Assembly (NCBI GenBank): GCA_003426165.1
Contig: QUAH01000004.1
Span: forward strand, 131,501 to 195,500
From: Candidatus Saccharicenans subterraneus
GTDB taxonomy: Bacteria > Acidobacteriota > Aminicenantia > Aminicenantales > Saccharicenantaceae
Reading direction: 5' to 3'
DNA length: 64,000 nucleotides
Shown here: positions 3,313 to 54,454 of the stretch, in pieces
Layout of the letters: each line of letters opens with the position of its first letter
Position numbering within the stretch: position 1 is the first letter of the stretch
The notes under the pieces: model-generated
Database searches by the model: none
Seen by the model: the letters and a program-made list of their open reading frames with translations, nothing else
Told to the model about the DNA's origin: nothing
Program-made: the position numbers and the translations under genes

Positions 3313-5094
3313 TTACTCGGTCAGCCGTCCCAGAGTTTTTTCTATCTTTGACCTGTCCAGTCGGATAACCACCGGGCGGCCGTGCGGGCAGAGGCCCGGA
3401 TTGGGCGTTGCCAGGAGCTCAGAAGCCAGGAACTCCATTTCCTCCGCCGAAAGAGGCTGGCCGGCCTTGACGGCCGCTTTGCAGGCCATGGTGGCCATCA
3501 TTTTTTCCCGTCGACTCCGGAACTTCCCTTCTTCTTCCTCTCCCAGCAGAGACAGCAGGATGCCGGCGGCTTCATCCTCCCGGAAAACGTCAGGGTATTC
3601 TTTCAGGGCAAAGCTGAGTCCGCCCATCGGTTCCAGCCTGAATCCCAGCTCTTCCAGCTCGGGCCGACGTTCCTGGTAATTAACCTGCTGTTTTGGCGTA
3701 AGTTCCAGCACCGCGGGAAAGAGCATCTGCTTTGAAATCCAGGCCCGCGCCCCCTCCAGCTGTTTGAATTTTTCGAACAGTATTCGCTCATGGGCATTGT
3801 GCTGGTCGATGATAAAAACCGCCTCTTCCGTAACCGCAATCAGATACGAATCAAGATACTGTCCCAGAACCCTGACCGTCGCCTTCCGCTCCCCGGACTC
3901 CGGCTCGGCCGCCGGCCCGATTCTGAAAGCAGCCGGTTCTTCGGCGGCCGCAAGAAGAGCCGGCTGGCCTTCGGCGGCCTCTTTCGGCCAGGCGACCCCG
4001 GGAACCTCGAAGCTCGTTCCCGCAGCCCGGCCGGTTCTCCCGACCCGGCCCGGCGCTTCTATTCCTTCCCCCTTTTCCCCGCTTACGATTATCGGCTTGA
4101 CCAGGCTTTCCTCCCGGGCAGACATTTCCACCGCTCTTAGAATCAGCCGGAAAACTTTTTGCGGCTCCCGGAATCTCACCTCAGATTTGGCCGGATGGAC
4201 GTTGACGTCGACCTGTTCGGCGGGAATTTCCAGGAAGATAAAACCTTCGGGCTGTTTCTGCTTTTCCAGGAGACCCAGATAGGCCTGGGTCAGGGCCACC
4301 GCCAGCATCCGGTCTTTAACCGGTCTCCGGTTGACATAAAAGAATTGATGCTGGCGGTCGAGCCGGCCGGCAAAAGGTCTGGAGCTTAGCCCGAAGATCC
4401 GGTAATTCTCCTCCTCATAATCCAGGCTCATCAGGCTGTCCAGGACCTTCTTTCCGAACAGTTGATAAACCCGCTCCCCCAGTGAAGAGACGACCGGACA
4501 GTTAATCAATTCTTTCTGATTGTGAACCAGAAGGAATCTCACCTCCGGAAAGGCCAGGGCGGTCGTGGTCAGATAACCGACCACCAGGCTCAGCTCGGAA
4601 CGGTCTGACCTTAGAAACTTGCGCCTGGCCGGCAGGTTGAAAAACAGGTCCCGAACCTCAACCGAGGTTCCGCGCGGAAAGGCGCTTTCTATAAAGCGCA
4701 GCAGCTTTTCCCCTTCCCTCTCCACCTGAAAGCCTTTTTCTCCCGAACCGTCGCTGGTCTTCAGGGTCACTCTGGAAACCGCCGAAATGCTGGCCAGGGC
4801 TTCTCCCCTGAAGCCGAGGGTGGAAATCCTCTCCAGGTCGACCTCGGTAGCGATCTTGCTGGTGGCATGACGCTTAAAGCACAGGGCGGCATCTTCCTGT
4901 GACATGCCGCTGCCGTTATCCTGAACCCTGATCAGCTTCTTGCCGCCCTCCAGCAGTTCAATTTTGATTTCCGTTGCTCCGGCGTCAAGAGAATTTTCGA
5001 CCAGCTCTTTAACCACCGATACCGGGCGCTCCACCACTTCCCCGGCCGCAATCTTGCCGGCCACATCTGCCGCCAGAACCCTTATTCTGCCCAT
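3313..5094 (-). CDS. mutL: DNA mismatch repair protein MutL
   Basis: IAAGEVVERPVSVVKELVENSLDAGA, DNGSGM, GFRGEALASI motifs; C-terminal CPHGRPVVIRL. Confidence 0.97.
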   Translation of the reverse strand: MGRIRVLAADVAGKIAAGEVVERPVSVVKELVENSLDAGATEIKIELLEGGKKLIRVQDNGSGMSQEDAALCFKRHATSKIATEVDLERISTLGFRGEALASISAVSRVTLKTSDGSGEKGFQVEREGEKLLRFIESAFPRGTSVEVRDLFFNLPARRKFLRSDRSELSLVVGYLTTTALAFPEVRFLLVHNQKELINCPVVSSLGERVYQLFGKKVLDSLMSLDYEEENYRIFGLSSRPFAGRLDRQHQFFYVNRRPVKDRMLAVALTQAYLGLLEKQKQPEGFIFLEIPAEQVDVNVHPAKSEVRFREPQKVFRLILRAVEMSAREESLVKPIIVSGEKGEGIEAPGRVGRTGRAAGTSFEVPGVAWPKEAAEGQPALLAAAEEPAAFRIGPAAEPESGERKATVRVLGQYLDSYLIAVTEEAVFIIDQHNAHERILFEKFKQLEGARAWISKQMLFPAVLELTPKQQVNYQERRPELEELGFRLEPMGGLSFALKEYPDVFREDEAAGILLSLLGEEEEGKFRSRREKMMATMACKAAVKAGQPLSAEEMEFLASELLATPNPGLCPHGRPVVIRLDRSKIEKTLGRLTE

Positions 5095-6341
5095 CAGACC
5101 ACTTCCCCTTTTGACAGCGCCGGGCCGGCCTCGGTAATCCTTACCAGGACGTCTTGACCGGGCCTCAAATCCCGGCCGTCTTCAACCATGACTTTTATAT
5201 AATTCCCGGTCAGAACCTCCAATCTGGAGCCTCTTTTTTTGATCACGACACCCGCCAGCGCCCGGCCGACGAATCCGGCCCTGAAGGCCAGGTTTTTTTC
5301 TCTCGAAAGTTTCCGCAGCTCCTCAGACCTTTTTTTCTTTACGTTTTCCGGAACCTGCTTCCAGCCGGCAGCCGGGGTGCCGGCCCGGGGAGAATATGAA
5401 AACACGTGGAAATAATTCAGAGGCGAACTCTTCAGGAAATCCCTCATAAACTCAAAATCAGCTTCTTCCTCCCCCGGGAAACCGACGATGATATCAGCAC
5501 CCAGTCCGGCTTCGGGTCTACCGGCTCTGAGAAAACTTAAAATTTCCAGATACCCGGCCGGAGTGCTTTTCCGGCCCATTCTTCTGAGCACCGGTTCGGA
5601 GGCATGCTGCAGCGACAGATGAAAATGCGGGCAGATTTTTTCTTCCTTGGCCAGATAGCCAAGAAGAGGCTCCGGAAGAAGCCGGGGGTCGAGGGAGCTC
5701 AGCCTGACCAGTCTGAGTTCCTCTATGGCCGTCAGCGCCCGGAGCAGGTCGAGCAGCGATTTTTCAGGCTCCAGGTCTCGCCCGTAGGCGCAGAGATGAA
5801 TCCCGGCCAGCACGATTTCTTTGTAACCCCTTTCGGCCGCCTCCCTGGCGCATTCTACCACCTGTTCCAGCGGCCGGCTCCGGCTTTTTCCCCGGAGCGA
5901 GGGAATTATGCAGAAGGTGCAATGGGAATCGCAGCCGTCCTGGACTTTAATCAGGGCCCTCGACCGGAAGAATCTTTTTTCCGCCCGACCGTCGCCGGCC
6001 CCGGTTAACTTCAACAGTTCTCCAACCAGATTTTCTTTCAGGAAATTCGGGATGACCCGGCAAACCGCGCTGTTTCCGGCCAGTTCTTCCCGAGTTTTAT
6101 CGGCCAGGCAGCCGGTGACCACGATTCTTGTCCCGGGCGATTCCCTCCGGACTCTTTTCAGAAACTGCCTGACGTCGGCTTCGGCCCTGGCGGTCAGGGC
6201 GCAGGCATTGACCACCACCCAGTCAGCCTGATGCCAGTCGCGGGCGACGGCTATGCCGGCCTCTCCCAGCCGGCAGGACCAGTCAAAAGCTTCGGCCTGG
6301 TTGACCCGGCAGCCGAAGTTGTGGATGAAGACCGAAGTCAT
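5094..6341 (-). CDS. mtaB: Threonylcarbamoyladenosine tRNA methylthiotransferase MtaB-like (MiaB family)
   Basis: NFGCRVNQAEAF N-terminus, radical SAM CDSHCTFCIIP, TRAM-like C-terminus. Confidence 0.9.
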   Translation of the reverse strand: MTSVFIHNFGCRVNQAEAFDWSCRLGEAGIAVARDWHQADWVVVNACALTARAEADVRQFLKRVRRESPGTRIVVTGCLADKTREELAGNSAVCRVIPNFLKENLVGELLKLTGAGDGRAEKRFFRSRALIKVQDGCDSHCTFCIIPSLRGKSRSRPLEQVVECAREAAERGYKEIVLAGIHLCAYGRDLEPEKSLLDLLRALTAIEELRLVRLSSLDPRLLPEPLLGYLAKEEKICPHFHLSLQHASEPVLRRMGRKSTPAGYLEILSFLRAGRPEAGLGADIIVGFPGEEEADFEFMRDFLKSSPLNYFHVFSYSPRAGTPAAGWKQVPENVKKKRSEELRKLSREKNLAFRAGFVGRALAGVVIKKRGSRLEVLTGNYIKVMVEDGRDLRPGQDVLVRITEAGPALSKGEVV

Positions 6342-6829
6342 AATTTCTCTTTGAGCTTTTTCGAGCTCTCCTCCACCTTCTCGGCCATTTTCTTCCGGTA
6401 AGCCAGAAGCTTCCGGTAAAGCCCGGGCTCAGAAATCGCCAGCATCGAAACAGCCAGCAGGGCAGCGTTGGCTCCGCCCGTTTTTCCCAGGGCCACAGTG
6501 GCCACCGGAATGCCCTTTGGCATCTGGACGATCGACAGCAGGGCATCCAGGCCGGCCAGGGCCTGACTTTCCACCGGCACCCCGATAACCGGCAGGGCAG
6601 TATGGGCGGCCACCACTCCCGGAAGATGGGCAGCTTTCCCGGCCACGGCGATAAATACCTTTGTCCCCTGTTCTTCGGCTTCTTTAATCAGCCTGACCGT
6701 TCTTTCGGGCGAACGATGGGCCGAAGTCACCTCCAGATTGAAAGGAACTTCAAACTCCTTCAGGGTATCCAGGGCTTCCTTGACCACCTCAAAATCGGAG
6801 TCGCTCCCCAGAAAAATCGTCACCTTCAT
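6338..6829 (-). CDS. purE: 5-(carboxyamino)imidazole ribonucleotide mutase
   Basis: GSDSDFEVVKEA...VTSAHRSPERT...AVAGKAAHLPGVVAAHT. Confidence 0.95.
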   Translation of the reverse strand: MKVTIFLGSDSDFEVVKEALDTLKEFEVPFNLEVTSAHRSPERTVRLIKEAEEQGTKVFIAVAGKAAHLPGVVAAHTALPVIGVPVESQALAGLDALLSIVQMPKGIPVATVALGKTGGANAALLAVSMLAISEPGLYRKLLAYRKKMAEKVEESSKKLKEKL

Positions 6830-8103
6830 CTTACCTCCTTCATGGCTCCGATGTCTTTTCGGTAAAACATGCCGTCAAAATTAATCACCGGAATGGTGTC
6901 GTAGATTTTTTTCATGGTCTGCTGCAGGTTTTCATCGCTGGCGCAGACGTTGAGCACCCGGCCGCCGTTGGTGTAAAACTGCCCGTTGGCCAGGCTGGTG
7001 CCGGCATGGAAAATGACCAGGCCCGGAACCTTCTCGGCTTCTTCCAGACCGCTGATCAATTTGCCTTTCTCGTAACTGCCCGGATAGCCGCCCGAGGCCA
7101 CCACCACGCAGCCGGCAACTTTCGGACTCCACTTAATTTCTTCCTTCAACAGGTCCTCGGTCACGGCCGACATCAGGACTTCAACCAGGTCGCTCTCCAT
7201 CCTGAGCATCTGGACCTGGGTCTCCGGGTCGCCGAAGCGGCAGTTGTACTCCAGGACCTTTGGCCCATCGTTGGTCAGCATCAACCCGGCATAGAGGGTA
7301 CCCTTGAAACGCCGGCCTTCTTCCAGCAACCTGGTGACCGTCGGGAAGATGATGGTATCCATTATCTGGGCATAGAGCTTTTCTGAAATAAAGGGCGACG
7401 GCGAAATGGCCCCCATGCCGCCGGTATTAGGTCCCTTGTCGCCGTCATAGGCGGCCTTATGGTCCATCGTGGTTACCAGAGGTTGCACCCTGGCCCCGTC
7501 GGTCAGGACAATAAAGGATAGTTCGCGACCTTTGAGAAATTCTTCGATCACCACCCTTTCGCCCGAGGTTCCGAATTTTTTCCTGACCATTATCTCGTTG
7601 ACCGCATCTTCGGCCCGTTTGACGTTGGCGCAGACCATAACTCCTTTGCCCGCGGCCAACCCGTCGGCCTTAATGACCACCGGAAATTCGAACTCTCCGG
7701 AATTTAATATCTTCAGGGCTTCTTCGGCGCTGCCGGCCACTTTGAACCGGCCGGTCGGAATGCGGTGCCGTTCCATGAATTCCTTGGCAAAGACCTTGCT
7801 CTTTTCAATTTCGGCTGCTTTTTTATTGGGTCCGTAAATCTTCAGCCCTCGCCTCTCAAATTCATCCACGATTCCGAGAGCCAGCGGCACCTCGGGCCCG
7901 ACCACCGTCAGGTCGATTTTCTTTTCTTCGGCAAATCTGGCCAGGAGAGAAATGTTGGTATCCTCAATCGGGACCACTTCGGCAATCCTGGCCATTCCTC
8001 CGTTGCCCGGGGCGCAGTAGAGTTTTTTGCAATGCGGGCTCTGAACAATCTTCCAGGCCAGGGCATGTTCCCGGCCGCCCGACCCGACTAACAGTATTTT
8101 CAT
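6826..8103 (-). CDS. purD: Phosphoribosylamine-glycine ligase
   Basis: MKILLVGSGGREHALAWKI...GPEVPLALGIVDEF...PNTGGMGAISPSP. Confidence 0.97.
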   Translation of the reverse strand: MKILLVGSGGREHALAWKIVQSPHCKKLYCAPGNGGMARIAEVVPIEDTNISLLARFAEEKKIDLTVVGPEVPLALGIVDEFERRGLKIYGPNKKAAEIEKSKVFAKEFMERHRIPTGRFKVAGSAEEALKILNSGEFEFPVVIKADGLAAGKGVMVCANVKRAEDAVNEIMVRKKFGTSGERVVIEEFLKGRELSFIVLTDGARVQPLVTTMDHKAAYDGDKGPNTGGMGAISPSPFISEKLYAQIMDTIIFPTVTRLLEEGRRFKGTLYAGLMLTNDGPKVLEYNCRFGDPETQVQMLRMESDLVEVLMSAVTEDLLKEEIKWSPKVAGCVVVASGGYPGSYEKGKLISGLEEAEKVPGLVIFHAGTSLANGQFYTNGGRVLNVCASDENLQQTMKKIYDTIPVINFDGMFYRKDIGAMKEVR

Positions 8104-8113
8104 CAGCCCTCCT

Positions 8114-9565
8114 TCAAGCGCTCAATTCTCTGGCCCTTCTGGCCATGTTCTCAGCCAGGCCGGCGGCCAGCGCCGGAGAAGGCAGAAGGCTCAGCAGCAA
8201 CCGGCCGGCCAGCTCCAGAGCCTGTTTCTCGGGCAGACAGTAGCGCATCTCCAGGAAATTCCGGCGGTAGCGGCTGACCTCCTCCCCGACTTTTTTATTG
8301 CGGATTATAACCTCGGCTATCAAGCCGGCCAGCACCTCAAAATCCTTCTCTTTCATCCCGAATCGGGTCATCTCCTGCACGCCCATCCTTATTCCGGAAG
8401 AGTCCAAGAAGGTGGCGTCATCGGGCAGCGCCTGGTAGTTGGTCAGCAGGTTGTTGTCTTCCAGGCGACGGGCGATTTCCTGCCCGTTTCCAAACTGCTT
8501 AACCCGGATCAACACCTGGTGGGTTTCGGTGAAGCCGTCCGCCTCTTCGCCTTCGACCGGAATCCCGGCCGCCTTGAGATAACGGGCAAAAGCCCTGGCG
8601 TTCCGGCAAACCTGGGCCTGGTATTCTTCCTTGAACTCGTTCATCTCGATGGCCGACAGCAACAGTCCCAGCAACGTTCCCAGGTGGTGGTTGGAAGTCG
8701 AACCCGGGAAGGCCCGGCCCTGAATGTCGGTCCAGAGCTGCTTGAAGGGGCTGTCGGCTGAAAAATTCCCGGCCACCAGTCCGCGCTGGGTGCCGAAGAA
8801 AGTTTTATGGGTGCTGCCGGTAACCAGGTCGGCCCCTTCGGCAAACGGCGCCTGGAACGCGCCGTACAGGCCGAGAACATGGGCCATGTCATACATCAAC
8901 ACCGGTCTGTCCGGCCAATCTTTCACCAGGTCATAGACAAAGCTGACCGGTTCCCGGTAGATGAACATGCTCTTGCCGAAGACCACCAGCTCCGGCCGGT
9001 GTTTTTTCAGCAACTCGGCCAGGCGGTCGAGGTCGGCCCGGTAGGGATTATCCCGGCGGACGGGAATGTTGACCACATTTTCCTTGCCGCTGGCCGGGTC
9101 CTCTTCCACCAGGTTAAACAGCGCCCCCATCGGCTGGGAACTGAGATGCCCGCCCTTGTTCAGGTCGTTGTTCATCACCAGCCGCAGCCGGCGGAAAGGC
9201 TGACCGGCGGCCCTCTTTCTATTGACGAACTTAACCAGTCCTTTGAAAACCACTTCGTTGGCCATCTGACCGCTGACCGGTCTCAGTTCTACATCGGTGC
9301 AGCCGAAATACCGGCTCAGCTCTTTTCTGGCCTCAAGTTCCACGTCCCGGATGAAATCGGTTCCCTGGTAAAAATATACTTCCTGGCCTTTCATGGTCCG
9401 ATGTTCGGCATAGCGGCCCGAGGGGTCGGCAATTTCTGCCAGCTTGACCAGGAGAGAGGGCGTGTTTTCCGACGGAATCAGGTTAAAACATTTTTTTTGC
9501 CGCCAGATGTTATTTTTCTCGATGCGGTCACACCAGGCGGAAATTTTATCGGCAAATTCTGTCAT
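8114..9565 (-). CDS. glyA: Serine hydroxymethyltransferase-family PLP enzyme (divergent)
   Basis: NLIPSENTPS...GRYAEHR...ELRPVSGQMANE...GSTHKTFFGTQRG PLP-lysine motif; next to rpiB. Confidence 0.8.
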   Translation of the reverse strand: MTEFADKISAWCDRIEKNNIWRQKKCFNLIPSENTPSLLVKLAEIADPSGRYAEHRTMKGQEVYFYQGTDFIRDVELEARKELSRYFGCTDVELRPVSGQMANEVVFKGLVKFVNRKRAAGQPFRRLRLVMNNDLNKGGHLSSQPMGALFNLVEEDPASGKENVVNIPVRRDNPYRADLDRLAELLKKHRPELVVFGKSMFIYREPVSFVYDLVKDWPDRPVLMYDMAHVLGLYGAFQAPFAEGADLVTGSTHKTFFGTQRGLVAGNFSADSPFKQLWTDIQGRAFPGSTSNHHLGTLLGLLLSAIEMNEFKEEYQAQVCRNARAFARYLKAAGIPVEGEEADGFTETHQVLIRVKQFGNGQEIARRLEDNNLLTNYQALPDDATFLDSSGIRMGVQEMTRFGMKEKDFEVLAGLIAEVIIRNKKVGEEVSRYRRNFLEMRYCLPEKQALELAGRLLLSLLPSPALAAGLAENMARRARELSA

Positions 9566-9650: not shown

Positions 9651-10106
9651 CTACTTAGATTTATGGAGTTCTTCCTCCAGGGCAAAAATCTTTTTTATCC
9701 GGCGTTCGTGCCGGCCGCCCTCAAAATCCTTTTCCAGCCAGATTTTGACGATCTTGATCGCCTGTTCGGAAGATAGCACCCGTCCCCCCAGTGCCAGGCA
9801 GTTGGAATTGTTATGAGTCCGGCTGACGGTGGCCGTGAATTCATCCCAGCAGGGGGTGGCTATTATTCCCGGAAACTTATTGGCCACCACGGCCATGCCC
9901 AGGCCGGTCCCGCAGAACAGGATGGCCCGGTCGAATTCGCCGCTCACCACCCGGCGGACCGCCTCGGCTCCGTAATCGACGTAGTCCACGCTTTCGCCGG
10001 GGCCGCAGCCAAAATCGGTAAAAGCTATCCCCGCCGATTGAAGATAAGCGACCACTTCTTTTTTTAATTCATATCCGGCATGGTCGGAAGCGATGGCCAG
10101 TTTCAT
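9651..10106 (-). CDS. rpiB: Ribose-5-phosphate isomerase B
   Basis: MKLAIASDHAGYELKK...FCGTGLGMAVVANKFPGI. Confidence 0.95.
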   Translation of the reverse strand: MKLAIASDHAGYELKKEVVAYLQSAGIAFTDFGCGPGESVDYVDYGAEAVRRVVSGEFDRAILFCGTGLGMAVVANKFPGIIATPCWDEFTATVSRTHNNSNCLALGGRVLSSEQAIKIVKIWLEKDFEGGRHERRIKKIFALEEELHKSK

Positions 10107-10154
10107 TGCCGACTCCTCAGGTCATCTTATACGGACAGCCGAACTGAAATCAGG

Positions 10155-11744
10155 TCAGCGGCTGTTCCGGACGAACTTCGCGGCTTCGGGCATGACTTCA
10201 ACCGCTTTAAGCACCACCGGGTCGGTCTGCCTGAAGGCCCTGATTCCCTCTTCCAGGCTGAAAACTGCCGAAAAAATCTCGCGCCTGAGTTCGTTCTTTA
10301 TTTCAGCTTCGGCCTCGCCCAGCTTGCTCAGGTCATACTTGATTCCGGTCGTGCCCACATATTCCAGAAAATCTTTGACCACCTCCGGCCCGACCTCAAA
10401 GCCGGCGTCAAAAATCCGGCGCCCGGCGGGAGGCGTCCCGTTTTTCAGTTCCTGGGGAAAAACATAACCGGCCGACAGCCGGGTCTGATGCAGGCTGAAT
10501 TTCCGGCCGTAGCTGAAAAAGGCGCCCCTGATCAGAAATTCCACGGTCAGGGGTTTATAACTGGTCTTAACTTCATAGTCCGGACTGATCCCGCCCTGCC
10601 CGAGAACCTTTCGGCCTTTGACCGTATATTTGATTTCTCGTTTCTCTTCCGGCGCTCTCCTGGCCAGGAGATAATCCTCAAGGTGAGAATAATCCCTCTG
10701 GATTTCGCGCCCGCTGGGAGTGAGGTACTTGGCCGTGGTGATGGCCACCGCCATATCGGCGGCCAGCGGGAAAACTGTCTGAACCAGTCCTTTGCCCCAG
10801 GAATCTTCGCCGACGATCAGGCCGCGGTCGTTGTCCATGATGGCTCCGGCCACGATCTCGGAAGCGCTGGCCGTGCCGGTATTGATAAGAATTACCAGCG
10901 GCAGGTCTTCATACTGGTTATCCTGGCTGGCAAAGAAATCCCGGTTGTAAGCGGTATTGCGGCCTCTCATGGACACGATCTTGGCCCCCCTCGGCAGGAA
11001 CAGGTCGGCCATGTCCACCGCCTGGAAAACGGGTCCGCCGGTGTTGCCGCGCAGGTCCAGGATAAGGCTTTCCATTCCTTTTTCAGAAAGCTCTTCCAGA
11101 GCCGCTTCCAGTTCATCGACGGTCTGGCGACCAAAATTGCGGACAAAGATATAGCCAATTTTCTTTTTTGTGTCCAGCAGAAAAGCATAGGGGACGCTTT
11201 TCAGCGGAATTTCCTCCCGGGTGATGGTCAGGTCGAACGGTTTGTCCAGCCCTTCTCTCTGGATGGTGATGGTAACTCTGGTGCCCTTCTCTCCCCGCAA
11301 TTTCAGCATGGCTTCGGTGCTGCTCAGGGGTTTGGTGCTTTCGCCGTCGATGTGGGTGATGACGTCCCCGGGTTGAATGCCCAGCCTCCAGGCCGGTGTG
11401 CCTTCTATCGGCGCAATCACCACCAGCCGGTCCTCCTGCTTCTGAATCTGGATGCCCAGACCGTAATATTTGCCGGTGTAATCCTCGGTAAAGGTCCGGG
11501 CCCCTTCCGGGTCCAGAAAATAGGAATGCGGGTCCAGGGTGTCCAGCATGCCCCTGATGGCCGAGAAAGTCAGCTTGCGGGCGTCTTTCTCTTCAAAGTA
11601 TTCCTTCTGGACCAGACCGGTGAGATTCAGCACCTTGTTCACACCCTGCTGCCAGGGGTCGATGGCCACCGAAGAGCGGCAGACCAGGAACAGCAGAGGA
11701 AATAAAACTATAAGGAGCGAAAACCGCTTTGAATTCTGGTTCAT
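10155..11744 (-). CDS. S41 family C-terminal processing peptidase with PDZ domain
   Basis: Signal peptide; PDZ (GLGIQIQKQ...GDVITHIDGEST); LDLRGNTGG; GTASASEIVAGAI. Confidence 0.93.
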   Translation of the reverse strand: MNQNSKRFSLLIVLFPLLFLVCRSSVAIDPWQQGVNKVLNLTGLVQKEYFEEKDARKLTFSAIRGMLDTLDPHSYFLDPEGARTFTEDYTGKYYGLGIQIQKQEDRLVVIAPIEGTPAWRLGIQPGDVITHIDGESTKPLSSTEAMLKLRGEKGTRVTITIQREGLDKPFDLTITREEIPLKSVPYAFLLDTKKKIGYIFVRNFGRQTVDELEAALEELSEKGMESLILDLRGNTGGPVFQAVDMADLFLPRGAKIVSMRGRNTAYNRDFFASQDNQYEDLPLVILINTGTASASEIVAGAIMDNDRGLIVGEDSWGKGLVQTVFPLAADMAVAITTAKYLTPSGREIQRDYSHLEDYLLARRAPEEKREIKYTVKGRKVLGQGGISPDYEVKTSYKPLTVEFLIRGAFFSYGRKFSLHQTRLSAGYVFPQELKNGTPPAGRRIFDAGFEVGPEVVKDFLEYVGTTGIKYDLSKLGEAEAEIKNELRREIFSAVFSLEEGIRAFRQTDPVVLKAVEVMPEAAKFVRNSR

Positions 11745-48073: not shown

Positions 48074-48706
48074 TATATTGTTGTTAGCAAGGGGAAAAAG
48101 ATAATTATTAGAAAAAGCGGCTTTTTATTTCATTCTCTTAAATTTTTTTAACCCTCGCTTCCTTTCAATCCCTTTTTTCCTTATTTTTCCTTATATGATT
48201 CTTTAATTTTTATAGCCTTCCCCTTCAAAATATCCTTCATTTCCCTGCAACCAAAACGGCTCCCCGTTTGTTTATCCAATTGAGCAAAGATGAGAATACG
48301 AGGAATATTAAGGTTTAATCAGGAGTTAAACCTCAACGCCTCCTTCTCTTAATCCCCTCCTTTCCTTGCCCTTCACCCAGGCCCTGCTTCCAACCGAGCA
48401 GGGCTGTATTTTCATTACCTAAATGACCAGAGAGCGCGAAACTCTGGTTCATAACCTCATGTCACTATGACAGGCATGCCCAAAAAAGGTCATCTGTTTT
48501 CTTTCATAATAATCTCGTTACACGTTCTAACGATGGATTCTTTTCTCTGGCGGCGTTTCCTCTTTTCTTCTGCCCTGAGGGCCTTTAGCCCTAACCACCG
48601 CGCCGCTTCCAAACAGGCCCATTAGACTGGATACTATGTCTTTACCGGAAAGAACGAGGGACTTGACATATTTTTTTTGCTAAAATTGTTTTGAAAAAGG
48701 AAAAAA

Positions 48707-49666
48707 ATGCATGGGGTTGGGAAAACCCTGATTTTTCTAACCCTGTCCTTTTCTTGCCTCCGCAGCCTGGTTCCTGGAGTCATCAACCCCCAACAGGTGG
48801 TTAGTGATAGGTCACATCGCCAGCATGAACTATTCTTAGTTTTTGATCCCAAAAACCTCTCTCACAGATTCTCGATTATGTATGCCCAGGCTCTATGGAA
48901 AAGATTTAAGATGTTCAACTTATCCGTATTCGGAATTTCAACCGGAAATTACCAAGACACCGAAGAAGCCAAGCAGCTATGCCGGGTATCTTTTCCCGTA
49001 ATACAGGACGGAGGAATCAAATTTATCGAAAAGCATAACCTGAATGGGTGCTGTGGCGCCACCATGCTTGTCAGTCCTGACCAAGAAATACTTTTAAAGG
49101 AAAGCGAGCTTCTCCCGCCTGAGCTGTTGAGACAACTAATAGAAAGACACCTGAACATGGTTGAAATGCGAGCGGAGCCCCCGGTCTGGTCACCGCCTTT
49201 TATTGAACGGGATATTATTCCCGACTTTATGATTTATGGAATAGATGGGCAAAGAAGGACCCTATCTGAAGAGTTAAAAAAATTAAACATTCTCACATTT
49301 TTTTCTTCATATTCTTCCTGCCTTTCCTGCAAACATGTGAGCCGGCTTGAGACGCTCCGGAAAATTTCCACGAATGCGGGTGATGGCCCCTTCCTCAGTG
49401 TTTTTTTCATGGAGCCTTTTTCTGTGAATGACGTCAAGACAATTAGAACCTCCCGGGGGTGGAATTTCCCTACATATTTGATTCAAAACTTCATGCCAGA
49501 AGAGAACATTTTTATAACAGAGGAAAGATTAAAGTGTGATCCCTGGTCTGTTCTTATCGATGATAACAGGGTGGTTATCTGGTCTGAATATCCGGGATTC
49601 TCAGAAGAAAGGATAATTAAAGAAATAAACCAGAGAATTAGTAAATTAAAAACGAAGCTGAAATGA
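48707..49666 (+). CDS. Exported tandem thioredoxin-like protein (second domain with CLSC motif)
   Basis: N-terminal hydrophobic segment; GATMLVSPDQEILLKESELLPPELLRQLIERHL; IIPDFMIYGIDGQRRTLSEELKKLNILTFFSSYSSCLSCKHVSRLETL. Confidence 0.7.
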   Translation: MHGVGKTLIFLTLSFSCLRSLVPGVINPQQVVSDRSHRQHELFLVFDPKNLSHRFSIMYAQALWKRFKMFNLSVFGISTGNYQDTEEAKQLCRVSFPVIQDGGIKFIEKHNLNGCCGATMLVSPDQEILLKESELLPPELLRQLIERHLNMVEMRAEPPVWSPPFIERDIIPDFMIYGIDGQRRTLSEELKKLNILTFFSSYSSCLSCKHVSRLETLRKISTNAGDGPFLSVFFMEPFSVNDVKTIRTSRGWNFPTYLIQNFMPEENIFITEERLKCDPWSVLIDDNRVVIWSEYPGFSEERIIKEINQRISKLKTKLK

Positions 49667-50757
49667 TAAAACGTAGAAGACCAAGCTTTTATATACCCTA
49701 TCCATTCATCATGTTATTTTTCTGTCTTTCCACTTCCTGCCACCAGGAAAACCCTGTGCCGGGGGGCCGCAACTTACCAGAAATGGTCATCGCGGCCCGG
49801 ATATTTTTGGATCTACAGACCCTGGGTACAGACTTCGAAATTTCCCGGACTTTTTTTCAGACCAAGCTATTCCACATGACCGAAGATTTAACCGCATACC
49901 TGATTGATTCTAACAGGCACAGGATCCTGGAAATTGATAGGGAGGGGAGGCTAAGAAGAGTAATTGGGGGTATAGGTCAGAGAGAGATAGATTTGTACTA
50001 TCCCGTGGCGGTCACCGCAAACGATAAGATGTTGGCCGTCATAAACAACTCCGGTGGAGAGATAAAAATATTCGATCGGTTTGCCCCAAAGATAAGGGTG
50101 ATATCCAGGAAAGAAACCTATTTCCTTCCCTCACTCATCATCGGCCAGGAAAATGAATTGATTGCGCCGGCGAGAAAGGTTACCCGGTCTATCGCCGAGA
50201 TGAATGAGGAACCCATTTTCTCCATATTTGATTTCAATTTCAACCAAATCCGCACTTTTGGTAAAGCCATAAAATGTTCCTCCCACATAGCTCACCTTCA
50301 CTTTAACCTGGTTGAGCTGTTTGCTGATGGGCAGATCATCTACGGTGCTTATGCCTGCCTGCCGATACTATTCGCCTTTGACCGGCATACTGGAAAGGAG
50401 CTATTCAAAAGGGACCTGCGCCTATCAGATATTCCTGAGATTAACCGCGCCCTGGAACGAGAAAGAGAGATCATGGCTGACACGCCGGAAAAACAGAATA
50501 AACCAAACCAGATCCGGCTGGTCAGAATGAACAGAGGGATTGGAGTTTATAAGGGGTCCATCTACTACCTTGGGTATGAGAAATTTCTACTGTTCGGCCC
50601 GCAGGCCGAGTTCCTCGGAACGCTCAAGATAACTCTGAATGACCAAGATATAACCTCTTATATAGATTGCTTTGTCATTTTGCCGGCCGGAAGGATGTTT
50701 GGCCTGGCGACAAGGCCGGAAAACCGGCAGCCCATAATCTTCGAGGCTGATTTATGA
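49663..50757 (+). CDS. Putative 6-bladed beta-propeller (lipo)protein
   Basis: Signal ending in LSTSC; AYLIDSNRHRILEIDREGRLRRVIGGIGQREIDLYYPVAVTAN repeated blade pattern; overlaps the upstream stop. Confidence 0.72.
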   Translation: MIKRRRPSFYIPYPFIMLFFCLSTSCHQENPVPGGRNLPEMVIAARIFLDLQTLGTDFEISRTFFQTKLFHMTEDLTAYLIDSNRHRILEIDREGRLRRVIGGIGQREIDLYYPVAVTANDKMLAVINNSGGEIKIFDRFAPKIRVISRKETYFLPSLIIGQENELIAPARKVTRSIAEMNEEPIFSIFDFNFNQIRTFGKAIKCSSHIAHLHFNLVELFADGQIIYGAYACLPILFAFDRHTGKELFKRDLRLSDIPEINRALEREREIMADTPEKQNKPNQIRLVRMNRGIGVYKGSIYYLGYEKFLLFGPQAEFLGTLKITLNDQDITSYIDCFVILPAGRMFGLATRPENRQPIIFEADL

Positions 50758-50785
50758 ACTTATAATTTCATTAAGGAGGGTTAAC

Positions 50786-51064
50786 ATGCCAAAATTTAAG
50801 CGGCTGGCGATACCAATTCTCATCGTCAGCTCACTCATTGCTGGCTTTTTCTTCACAGTCAGTCGGCCCGCTCTTAGCTGCGGCATTAATTTCTTATGCG
50901 GGGACGGGACCTTGCTTTTCTGCGAAACTTTTGGAAATTGCGGCGGACATGAGGTCTGTGGTTATTACAGGTATTATTCGGGAGGGCCCATAAGAGGTAT
51001 TTTCTGTGAGTGCGGCGGAGCCTGGTGGGGCTCATATTGTGAGGCCGTGCCTCCGATGGTGTAA
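50786..51064 (+). CDS. Secreted small 8-cysteine peptide/mini-protein precursor
   Basis: 92 aa, excellent SD (AAGGAGGGTTAACATG), signal peptide LAIPILIVSSLIAGFFFTVSRPALS, then 8 Cys in CGINFLCGDGTLLFCETFGNCGGHEVCGYYRYYSGGPIRGIFCECGGAWWGSYCEAVPPMV. Confidence 0.82.
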   Translation: MPKFKRLAIPILIVSSLIAGFFFTVSRPALSCGINFLCGDGTLLFCETFGNCGGHEVCGYYRYYSGGPIRGIFCECGGAWWGSYCEAVPPMV

Positions 51065-51107
51065 GACACTTTATCTTGACATTAACTAACTCAGAATAGA
51101 ATTTGAG

Positions 51108-52205
51108 ATGCGGCAGAGGGGAGCGGTACTTATTGCGATCATTTTCGTTGCCATGCTCATAGGTATTGGATTTTTTAAATTGCACCAATCTACGCAGTTT
51201 GAAGAACTAGAATTTATAAAGGAAGGCGAGGAGGAGATCTTTATAAACACGAGAAAATCGGGAGCCAAACTCATCCAGGAATTTTATCTAAGCCGATGGG
51301 GAAAATATTATGTGCTGGAACAGGATAAAATTACCGAATGGGACGCCAGTGGAAATTTATGCGGAGAAATTGGATCAACCGGCCAAGGGCCGGGCGAGTT
51401 TACAGGGATAATTGGCATGGGGGTTAATGAAGAAAAGATATTCATCAACGACCAGGGAAGGAAAATAATAATATACTCAAGAAAAGGAGAGTTCTTGAGA
51501 CAATTCCCACTGGACACATTTCTCGCGGGCAATTTTGCCGCCAGCAATGATGATGAAATAATAGGTGTAACCTTATCAAGCACTGAATCAGGCAAGATTG
51601 GTCAAATCACCGGATTAGATGCAAAGGGAAGAATAAAATATTTTCTTCAGGAACCTAAGGATCACGGCCTCTGGACTTTGAGGTTCAGTAAAGAAGGGGG
51701 AGTGGCGGGTGGGATTATTAACCCCGAGAACCTCCCGGCTTTTATCATATGCCCTGCCGGAAATGGAGTGTGGTTAGCTCACAACTCGCAGTACTTTATC
51801 AGGTTTTACGATTATTCTGGAAACCTGGTCAGAACAATTGAGGGGCCTCCTTTTTCGAGGGAGACAACCCCGGATATTTCAAGTCAAAGGACAAGAAATG
51901 ATGTCCATCGTAGAAACCCAGCGCCTCTTTTCAGTGCATTGATTTTGGATGAATCGAATAGGTTATATGTGATAACCACATCTCGGAAAAGGCGCAAACA
52001 AAAAATCTACATAGCAGACATTTATAGTGAAGAAGGCAACTATTTACTATCCGCTAAGTGCCAGGCCAAACCGAAATTGATAAATAATGGATTCTTGTAT
52101 TTCATCTCGGAAGACCGGGAAGGTTGGCCGGTGATAAAAAGGATCAAGATAAAGAATTACCATGAGATTCTTTCAAGAAGGCCAACCGGGATTCATAAAA
52201 ATTAA
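51108..52205 (+). CDS. Membrane-anchored 6-bladed beta-propeller protein
   Basis: N-terminal TM; GSTGQGPGEFTGIIGMGVNEEKIFINDQGRKIIIYSRKGEFLRQF (GxGPGEF hallmark). Confidence 0.85.
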   Translation: MRQRGAVLIAIIFVAMLIGIGFFKLHQSTQFEELEFIKEGEEEIFINTRKSGAKLIQEFYLSRWGKYYVLEQDKITEWDASGNLCGEIGSTGQGPGEFTGIIGMGVNEEKIFINDQGRKIIIYSRKGEFLRQFPLDTFLAGNFAASNDDEIIGVTLSSTESGKIGQITGLDAKGRIKYFLQEPKDHGLWTLRFSKEGGVAGGIINPENLPAFIICPAGNGVWLAHNSQYFIRFYDYSGNLVRTIEGPPFSRETTPDISSQRTRNDVHRRNPAPLFSALILDESNRLYVITTSRKRRKQKIYIADIYSEEGNYLLSAKCQAKPKLINNGFLYFISEDREGWPVIKRIKIKNYHEILSRRPTGIHKN

Positions 52206-52271
52206 ACTGACCTTGTCGGCCAAAATTCTACTTCAATAATTGACACAGATACGGAATTTGATAAATTATGG

Positions 52272-52422
52272 ATTAGGGTTTAAGAAGCAGGGAAGTCCGT
52301 GAGAGGCGGACACAGCCCCCGCTACTGTAACTGGCGACGAATCCCTGATGCAGCCACTGCTCTCCGGAGTGGGAAGGCCAGGGAGGAGGAGGACCCGGGA
52401 GTCAGGATACCTGCCCTCAACC
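52272..52422 (+). promoter_or_regulatory. Cobalamin (B12) riboswitch
   Basis: GGGAAGTCCGTGAGAGGCGGACACAGCCCCCGCTACTGTAACTGGCGACGA...GCCACTG...GGGAAGGCCAGGGAGG...GGGAGTCAGGATACCTGCC; upstream of a TonB receptor. Confidence 0.94.
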
Positions 52423-52501
52423 CGGCAGCCTCTCTTTTCTTCGGGCGGAAGAAAAGAGGAGCGGCTCAGAAATTTTATCAAGCGGGGGGAAAGGAAGATG
52501 A

Positions 52502-54454
52502 ATGAAACGAAACCTTTCTGCCCGGTTACCCATCCTGCTTTCTCTTTTTCTCTGTCTTCTCAGCAACCTTTCAGCAGCGGCGCTGGCTGATGACGAAACC
52601 CAGCCGCCAAAAATCCAGCACGAGATAGTGGTCACGGCCACCCGCCTGGAAACCCCGGTCAAAGAAACCGCCTCGGCCATCAGCCTGGTCCAAGCTGAAA
52701 AGCTGCCACCGGGTGCCACCGTCAGGCCGGAGAGCGTTTTTGCGGGCCTCCCGGGCATCTTTTTCATCCAGACCGGCCTGGCCGGTGGGTCTGGTTCACT
52801 TTTTATCCGCGGCGCCAACTCGGAACATGCGGTCTTCATGATTGACGGACTGGAACTTAACGACCCGGTCTCCCCTTCCCGCTCTTTCAACTTCAACCTG
52901 TTTAACCTGGCTCTTATCGAACGGGTGGAAGTCCTGCGCGGACCGCAGAGCACTCTTTACGGCTCTGACGCCCTGGCCGGTGTGGTGAACATGGTCACGG
53001 CCGACCCCGAAAAGAACGAAGCCAGCCTTTCCGGCCTTTTCGGAACTTTCCGGACCGGGCAGGGAAATTTCAGGCTGGCCCGGGTCTGGCCAAACTTCTT
53101 TCTTCAGGCTGAATTCAACACCTTCACCACGGCCGGCATTTCCCAGGCCGGGAGCCGCTATCCGGGGAACAGCGAGGCCGATGGCTACAGCCAGCAGAGC
53201 CTGGCCCTTAAGATAAGCTACCGCTTCTCTCCGGACTTTCGCCTCAACTGGCAGACCCGCGGCCTGCTCGGCCGGGCCGAACTCGACACCTTCGGCGGAC
53301 CTTACGGAGATGACCCCAACTCTCTCCAGAAATCCCGCTTCCTCTTTAACCGCCTGGAGCTCGACGGTTTTTTTCTCGGCCATCGCTGGCAGCAAAAACT
53401 GGTCTTCGGCCTGGAAGCCGGGCGCCGGGAAAATGACAACCCGGCCGATACGGCCCACCCGGACGAAGGAGATTCAGCCCTTTACCGGAGCCGGCTCTTC
53501 AAGATTGACTGGCAGAACAATTTCTTCCTGGCTCCGAACCATACCCTCGTTTTCGGGGTCGATTTCCGCCAGGAACAGGGCAGCTCCTCTTATCTCTATT
53601 TCAGCCCCTGGGGAAACTACGAAAGTAGCTTCCCGCAGAAAACCGCCTCCCTGCTTGGCCTCTATCTCCAGGACCAGTGGAAACCCTGGAAGAGGCTGTC
53701 TCTGACCGCGGGCCTTCGCTCTGACCATCACCGGCGTTTTGGCCGCGCCCTGACCTTCAGGGCGGCAGCCTGCCTGGACCTGCCTGAAATCGGGGCCAGG
53801 CTGAAAAGCACCGTGGGCAGCGGCTTCAAGGCCCCTTCTCTCTACCAGCTCTTCGCCCCGGCGGATTATTATGGACCGGTCGGCAACCCTGACCTTCAAC
53901 CGGAAAGAAACCTGGGCTGGGATGCCGGGATTGAGAAGGAATTCGGCAACAGCCTGGCCCTCTCTCTCACCTATTTTGAAACCCGTTACCGCAACCTGAT
54001 CCAATTCTACTTTGGCTCTGGCTACCAGAATGTCGGCCGGGCTATAAGCCGCGGTCTGGAAGCCTCACTGGAAGCCAGGTTATTTAAGAATGGAAACATC
54101 AGCGCCGGCTGGACTCATCTCAGCTCCCGGGACCTGGACACTGGCAGCCCGCTCCTTCGCCGGCCGGAGGACAGCTTCAATGTTAGCTTTAACCTATCCC
54201 ATAAATCAATAAGCCTGGCGGCCGAGCTGAACTATATCGGTTCCCGGCTGGACGTGGACTATTCTTCCTATCCGCCGCAGACTGTAAAGCTCAAAGCGGC
54301 CACCATCGCCAACCTGCTTTTAAGCTATGACCTCAAAGAACCCCTGACCCTTTTCCTCCACGTCCAGAACCTTTTTAATACCCGCTACGAGCTCGTTTAT
54401 GGCTACGGTTCGCCGGGCACTACAATTTCCACCGGATTTAAATTAAAATTGTGA
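52502..54454 (+). CDS. btuB: TonB-dependent vitamin B12 receptor BtuB-like
   Basis: HEIVVTATRLETPVKETASAISLV TonB box/plug; RVEVLRGPQSTLYGSDALAGVVNMVT; riboswitch upstream. Confidence 0.92.
   Translation: MKRNLSARLPILLSLFLCLLSNLSAAALADDETQPPKIQHEIVVTATRLETPVKETASAISLVQAEKLPPGATVRPESVFAGLPGIFFIQTGLAGGSGSLFIRGANSEHAVFMIDGLELNDPVSPSRSFNFNLFNLALIERVEVLRGPQSTLYGSDALAGVVNMVTADPEKNEASLSGLFGTFRTGQGNFRLARVWPNFFLQAEFNTFTTAGISQAGSRYPGNSEADGYSQQSLALKISYRFSPDFRLNWQTRGLLGRAELDTFGGPYGDDPNSLQKSRFLFNRLELDGFFLGHRWQQKLVFGLEAGRRENDNPADTAHPDEGDSALYRSRLFKIDWQNNFFLAPNHTLVFGVDFRQEQGSSSYLYFSPWGNYESSFPQKTASLLGLYLQDQWKPWKRLSLTAGLRSDHHRRFGRALTFRAAACLDLPEIGARLKSTVGSGFKAPSLYQLFAPADYYGPVGNPDLQPERNLGWDAGIEKEFGNSLALSLTYFETRYRNLIQFYFGSGYQNVGRAISRGLEASLEARLFKNGNISAGWTHLSSRDLDTGSPLLRRPEDSFNVSFNLSHKSISLAAELNYIGSRLDVDYSSYPPQTVKLKAATIANLLLSYDLKEPLTLFLHVQNLFNTRYELVYGYGSPGTTISTGFKLKL

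Follow-up and report, generated by a model that had tools for sequence, protein, structure and literature searches.

A recurrent cassette joining a cysteine-rich mini-protein, a thioredoxin-like protein and β-propellers in Aminicenantia

What is a small cysteine-rich protein with a signal-like N-terminus doing between two β-propeller genes? The question is raised by four genes that lie on the plus strand at positions 48707-52205 of the window, by which we mean the whole 64-kb stretch of DNA analysed here, part of the 2.9-Mb genome (G000) of a Ca. Saccharicenans-like member of the class Aminicenantia. They encode, in order, a tandem thioredoxin-fold protein, a first propeller, a cysteine-rich precursor and a second propeller. 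An initial annotation made from the sequence had described this co-directional run, and its coordinates and the 4-nt overlap of the first two genes (ATGA) were all found as claimed; 28 nt separate the second and third genes and 43 nt the third and fourth. We propose, with a probability of roughly 0.55, that the cassette is one unit for an exported disulfide-rich mini-protein, in which the thioredoxin-like protein would make the disulfides and the propellers would bind the peptide.

A conserved precursor in a recurring cassette

The mini-protein gene (50786..51064, +) is preceded by a Shine-Dalgarno sequence, AAGGAGG (50773..50779, +), 6 nt 5' of its ATG, and encodes a precursor of 92 amino acids. 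Residues 1 to about 31 are signal-like, with an N-terminal hydrophobic stretch, and are followed by eight cysteines (C32, C38, C46, C52, C58, C74, C76 and C85) in the layout C-x5-C-x7-C-ETFGN-C-x5-C-x15-C-x-C-x8-C, in agreement with the initial description of an eight-cysteine signal-peptide precursor behind a strong ribosome-binding site. Two other genomes of the genus encode the very same precursor, and a third (G033) encodes one of 88% identity; the window and G033 copies differ by 24 synonymous and 11 non-synonymous codon changes over the whole open reading frame (ORF) and by 12 and 4 in the mature part. By this codon comparison the ORF is under purifying selection, which together with the Shine-Dalgarno sequence and the recurrence described below led us to reject a chance ORF. 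The G033 cassette may be decaying, because its C76 is replaced by tyrosine and its propeller 2 is interrupted.

Homologues extend this picture beyond the genus. The window-type family comprises nine precursors from six genera, with identity outside the genus falling to 21-30%, and the initial expectation that the eight cysteines would be conserved is borne out: seven are invariant and the eighth is present in 8/9, missing only in G033. The shared pattern starts C-x5-C and ends C-x-C...C, with a frequent core C-[ED]T-x-G-x-C. Searching with the single sequence returned near-identical copies from the genus only; the distant peptides were reached through gene neighbourhood first and profiles afterwards, and a profile of the nine members, a search of the kind suggested at the outset, matches 10/142 Aminicenantia genomes. 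A six-cysteine peptide of G002, at first aligned with the family, is missed by this profile and is assigned to a separate type. Another type, with 10 to 12 cysteines (CWC...DECC...DCC), occurs at loci L121, L185, L187, L191 and L193. None of these peptides has a meaningful relative in Pfam, NCBIfam or the PDB.

Recurrence of the cassette was assessed with a profile of the thioredoxin-like protein, searched against 297 genomes of the phylum and 142 of the class. A peptide was scored as a signal-like ORF of 45-130 amino acids with at least four mature cysteines and at least 5.5% cysteine, no more than 300 nt from a same-strand propeller. Such a peptide stands beside a propeller at 14/18 non-seed thioredoxin loci and at 3/22 propeller-only loci (Fisher P = 7e-5, a value that is indicative, as the analyst set the rule and its thresholds and some loci share a genome). 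The expectation that small cysteine-rich exported ORFs would recur next to such propellers in related genomes, on which the initial annotation had staked its proposal, thus holds. Separate thioredoxin and peptide searches converge on the same contigs, for example at 155-1036 and 2157-2345 of G386:C798.

Gene neighbourhood first led to G002, with its six-cysteine peptide between two propellers, and to G007, from a different genus, with the thioredoxin-like protein, propeller 1 and an eight-cysteine peptide consecutively. Of the loci then found by the thioredoxin profile, G380 has the exact order of the window (thioredoxin, propeller, eight-cysteine peptide, propeller) and G386 has thioredoxin, propeller and peptide; others lie in G143, G093 (three loci), G152, G328, G216, G021 and G031. 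The cassette is present in many diversified versions, several per genome in some cases, each with its own peptide, thioredoxin-like protein and propeller, and AGGAGG-like sites precede most of the peptide genes. Presence is patchy within the genus (4/19 genomes). Precursors are duplicated in tandem at L119 (7119-7708), L190 (8421-8995) and L120 (11205-11688); at L190 the copies are nearly the same in the signal region and diverge more in the mature part. The surveyed genomes mostly resemble metagenome-assembled genomes, and broken genes in G019, G093, G143 and G216 may be assembly errors. In G143 (L118, 10409-10642) a truncated propeller 1 runs into a window-type peptide that is in a different frame and has no clean start, which could be a deletion joining the two genes, whether by decay or by misassembly.

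An oxidoreductase, two propellers and their neighbours

The first gene (48707..49666, +) encodes 319 amino acids, and its product, predicted to be exported, is supported as a tandem of two thioredoxin-like domains. Profile positions 41-155 match ResA and peroxiredoxin structures and positions 196-335 a thioredoxin-like structure; in Pfam, AhpC-TSA stays below threshold (19.3 bits; cut-off 26). Domain 1 carries a vicinal CCG (C115, C116) and domain 2 the CLSC (residues 205-208; C205, C208) that the initial annotation had noted in its thioredoxin-fold protein. The domain-2 CxxC is kept in nearly every full-length homologue, that of L152 having its CxxC elsewhere. All six homologues of full or nearly full length that adjoin a window-type peptide have CCG, two others having CCG or CCE at the same place, and in our own reading of the alignment the motif would sit near the site of the thioredoxin cis-Pro loop. 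An AlphaFold2 model of the protein, from a shallow three-row alignment, has a mean confidence score (pLDDT) of 31.

The type of peptide and the type of thioredoxin-like protein appear to be inherited together, because the proteins from those CWC/DECC-type cassettes that were placed in the thioredoxin tree (L121, L185, L191, L193), with those of L122, L188 and L189, fall in a single clade with support 100/99. CET-type cassettes also group together in this tree (9/500 shuffles as low), a grouping that does not resolve a single origin.

Further evidence on the oxidoreductase comes from MauE (PF07291, 53-92 bits), which is encoded in five sister cassettes: L119, L185, L187, L198 and L203. The last belongs to the window's own genome (G000:C18:173000-187000, 4818-8034) and combines an AraC-type helix-turn-helix protein, a MauE-containing protein of 359 amino acids, a 76-amino-acid peptide with 11 cysteines, and a propeller. 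In methylamine dehydrogenase, the thioredoxin-like MauD together with MauE matures the disulfide-rich light chain, and the heavy chain is a propeller. The maturation proposed here would parallel that of this cysteine-rich light chain. The decRiPPter study cites a role of MauE in light-chain disulfide formation as speculation (PMC7794033). The same study describes Streptomyces clusters in which mauE or mauD accompanies precursors with at least eight cysteines, and proposes modification of the precursor (PMC7794033). Both settings place a cysteine-rich precursor next to MauE/MauD-type genes; the Streptomyces families, however, are actinobacterial, and we liken them to our cassettes by gene description rather than by sequence.

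The initial annotation had called two six-bladed propellers, and both are upheld as propellers, putatively six-bladed, by different routes. Propeller 2 (51108..52205, +; 365 amino acids) matches PF17170 (DUF5128, six-bladed β-propeller) at 33.7 bits against a curated cut-off of 22.9, carries the motif GQGPGEF and an N-terminal membrane anchor or signal, and has homologues across the family. Propeller 1 (49663..50757, +; 364 amino acids) has no PF17170 match and no meaningful Pfam match at all, and is recognised by its homology to the cassette propellers of G002 (E 5.6e-21) and G007. It has an N-terminal hydrophobic segment, and its AlphaFold2 model, also built from three rows, has a pLDDT of 40. 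Propeller 2 looks dispensable, several cassettes holding one propeller and the G033 copy being broken.

The genes on either side do not belong to the cassette. A gene for a pyridoxal-dependent decarboxylase lies upstream on the opposite strand; downstream lies a TonB-dependent receptor gene (52502-54454) with a cobalamin riboswitch (RF00174, 108 bits, 52259-52432) ahead of it. We rejected a link between the cassette and these neighbours because G026 keeps both of them after losing the cassette, of which a 46-residue remnant of propeller 2 is left between the decarboxylase and receptor genes.

Competing explanations for the cassette

Under the proposal given a probability of roughly 0.55 above, the four genes would form one expression unit for the mini-protein, whose precursor, to judge from its signal peptide, would enter the periplasm. 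The tandem thioredoxin-fold protein may form, isomerise or proofread the disulfides of the peptide, with a MauE-type membrane oxidoreductase as a partner that, for the window cassette, would be encoded elsewhere in the genome. The propellers, membrane-anchored or exported, would be dedicated partners that bind the folded peptide and hold or present it at the envelope. Gene content strongly suggests that the oxidoreductase of the cassette handles disulfides in the peptide; that the propellers bind the peptide, and that the product acts at the envelope or outside, is inference. The initial annotation had the CLSC protein forming or isomerising disulfides in the peptide and the propellers anchoring, exporting or sensing it. 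Disulfide formation gains independent support from MauE in the five related cassettes, although the reaction may be an oxidation, an isomerisation or a reduction; the propeller roles are conjecture.

Several points weigh against this proposal. The peptide may be reduced, rather than oxidised, by the oxidoreductase, and disulfides, export and complex formation are predictions from the genes. Two thioredoxin-propeller loci, L188 and L152, have no detectable peptide; the former (G000:C3:50000-64000, 6781-9026) is another thioredoxin-fold/propeller pair in the window's own genome, in which no cysteine-rich peptide was recognised. Many propellers stand without a peptide, so that binding of the peptide by the propellers is hypothetical. 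The window cassette also has no MauE, its genome having two elsewhere, one of them in the L203 cassette.

The likeness to the mau operon, which also combines a propeller, a cysteine-rich small protein, a thioredoxin-like protein and MauE, raises the alternative of a two-part enzyme resembling methylamine dehydrogenase, with the mini-protein as a propeller-bound small subunit, possibly bearing a modified residue, that is matured by the thioredoxin-like protein and MauE. We consider such an enzyme unlikely. Identity of the peptide with the light chain is unsupported, as no peptide matched it in Pfam or the PDB, and a cofactor of the tryptophan tryptophylquinone type is unlikely because the alignment of the nine members has no invariant tryptophan. 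The propellers are of another family, propeller 2 being PF17170 and no scanned propeller being named as a methylamine dehydrogenase heavy chain. The window cassette differs from the operon in having no MauE, and among the neighbours of the cassettes, which are partly classified, we recognised neither a MauG-type nor a radical SAM enzyme.

The uneven distribution of the cassette, including the remnant in G026, would suit a conflict system in which an antibacterial or self/non-self peptide is met by propellers acting as immunity proteins or receptors. So would the broken genes in G033 and G019, the tandem peptides at L119, L120 and L190, the several diversified cassettes in one genome and the plasmid-borne versions in Bacteroidota. 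Decayed relatives, however, fit the loss of any accessory trait equally well, selection on the mature peptide within the genus is purifying, not diversifying, and beside the cassette we recognised no gene for a dedicated exporter. We judge a conflict role improbable. Stand-alone AraC-type helix-turn-helix proteins of about 115-175 amino acids adjoin the sister cassettes L120, L122, L127, L198 and L203 and are possibly a dedicated regulator, which invites the idea that peptide and propeller together form an envelope sensor of redox state or of a ligand feeding such a regulator. No AraC-type or other regulator adjoins the window cassette, though, nor did the cassettes contain a recognisable membrane signal transducer; we regard a sensor as highly doubtful.

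A parallel in Bacteroidota and its meaning

The initial annotation had compared the locus with the NVEALA-propeller arrangement of Bacteroidota while placing the peptide outside that family, and both halves of the comparison hold. Like NVEALA-type clusters, the window cassette sets a small exported-type precursor directly beside a PF17170-type propeller on one strand, and like some of them, though not all, it has a CxxC thioredoxin-fold gene. The peptide itself is no NVEALA member: it has no match to PF14055 at E up to 10, under which a Phocaeicola NVEALA peptide used as positive control scores 47 bits, and a PF14055 search of the genome that holds the window finds nothing at E up to 1. An EALA-type motif is present in 4/4 Bacteroidota peptides and absent from the window peptide and the nine-member alignment, and a profile comparison of window-type and Bacteroidota mature peptides gave no relationship.

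The parallel is nevertheless closer than first stated, because two cassettes among the plasmid records through which we sampled Bacteroidota also hold a CxxC thioredoxin-fold gene. The Phocaeicola plasmid NZ_CP096966.1 (L138) encodes an NVEALA peptide (PF14055, 47 bits), a propeller, a hypothetical protein (10052-10582) and a second propeller. The hypothetical protein has the motif NCYPC, a thioredoxin-like sequence and an N-terminal membrane segment; its annotated start is probably too late, the ORF opening at 9962, and it matches no Pfam model, so the fold call rests on motif and context. On another plasmid (L225), an NVEALA-like peptide with the sequence LTDLEALADD and a propeller are accompanied by a homologous NCNVC protein (5986-6411). 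As judged from these sequences, at least two Bacteroidota cassettes include a CxxC thioredoxin-fold protein. A third locus (L224) has NVEALA and propellers with no thioredoxin recognised in the stretch read, and further Bacteroidota propellers lack an annotated peptide next to them. Domain 2 of the window thioredoxin protein can be aligned with its Bacteroidota counterparts with CxxC in register, an alignment that is not significant. The two kinds of cluster share a small exported cysteine-containing precursor, a single PF17170 propeller or a pair of them, and a CxxC thioredoxin-like protein, whereas the window peptide has eight ordered cysteines and its thioredoxin is a two-domain tandem with CCG and CxxC. 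In the literature searched, outside which most subscription journals lie, we found no explanation of NVEALA peptides or of PF17170-type propellers, and nothing on a propeller-peptide system of this kind.

Aminicenantia are a little-studied uncultured group in which this cassette recurs in many versions, and PF17170-type propellers are abundant there and widespread in gut Bacteroidota. In two phyla whose peptides are unrelated, a CxxC thioredoxin-fold protein and a propeller accompany an exported cysteine-rich peptide, which yields a concrete hypothesis, namely that the peptide is bound by the propeller and has its disulfides matured by a dedicated enzyme. The Phocaeicola plasmids make this hypothesis testable in cultivable Bacteroidota. 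If it is true, MauD/MauE chemistry would extend beyond methylamine dehydrogenase, as suggested for the Streptomyces clusters. More broadly, and tentatively, at less than even odds, these loci may belong to a large class of cassettes for exported disulfide mini-proteins, as yet uncatalogued, that spans Aminicenantia and, with parts of the same kinds, Bacteroidota. In each such cassette the peptide would be folded by a thioredoxin-fold protein of its own, in many cases with MauE, and displayed or sensed by propellers. NVEALA peptides and the propeller families now listed without a function would then belong to a single kind of peptide-handling system.

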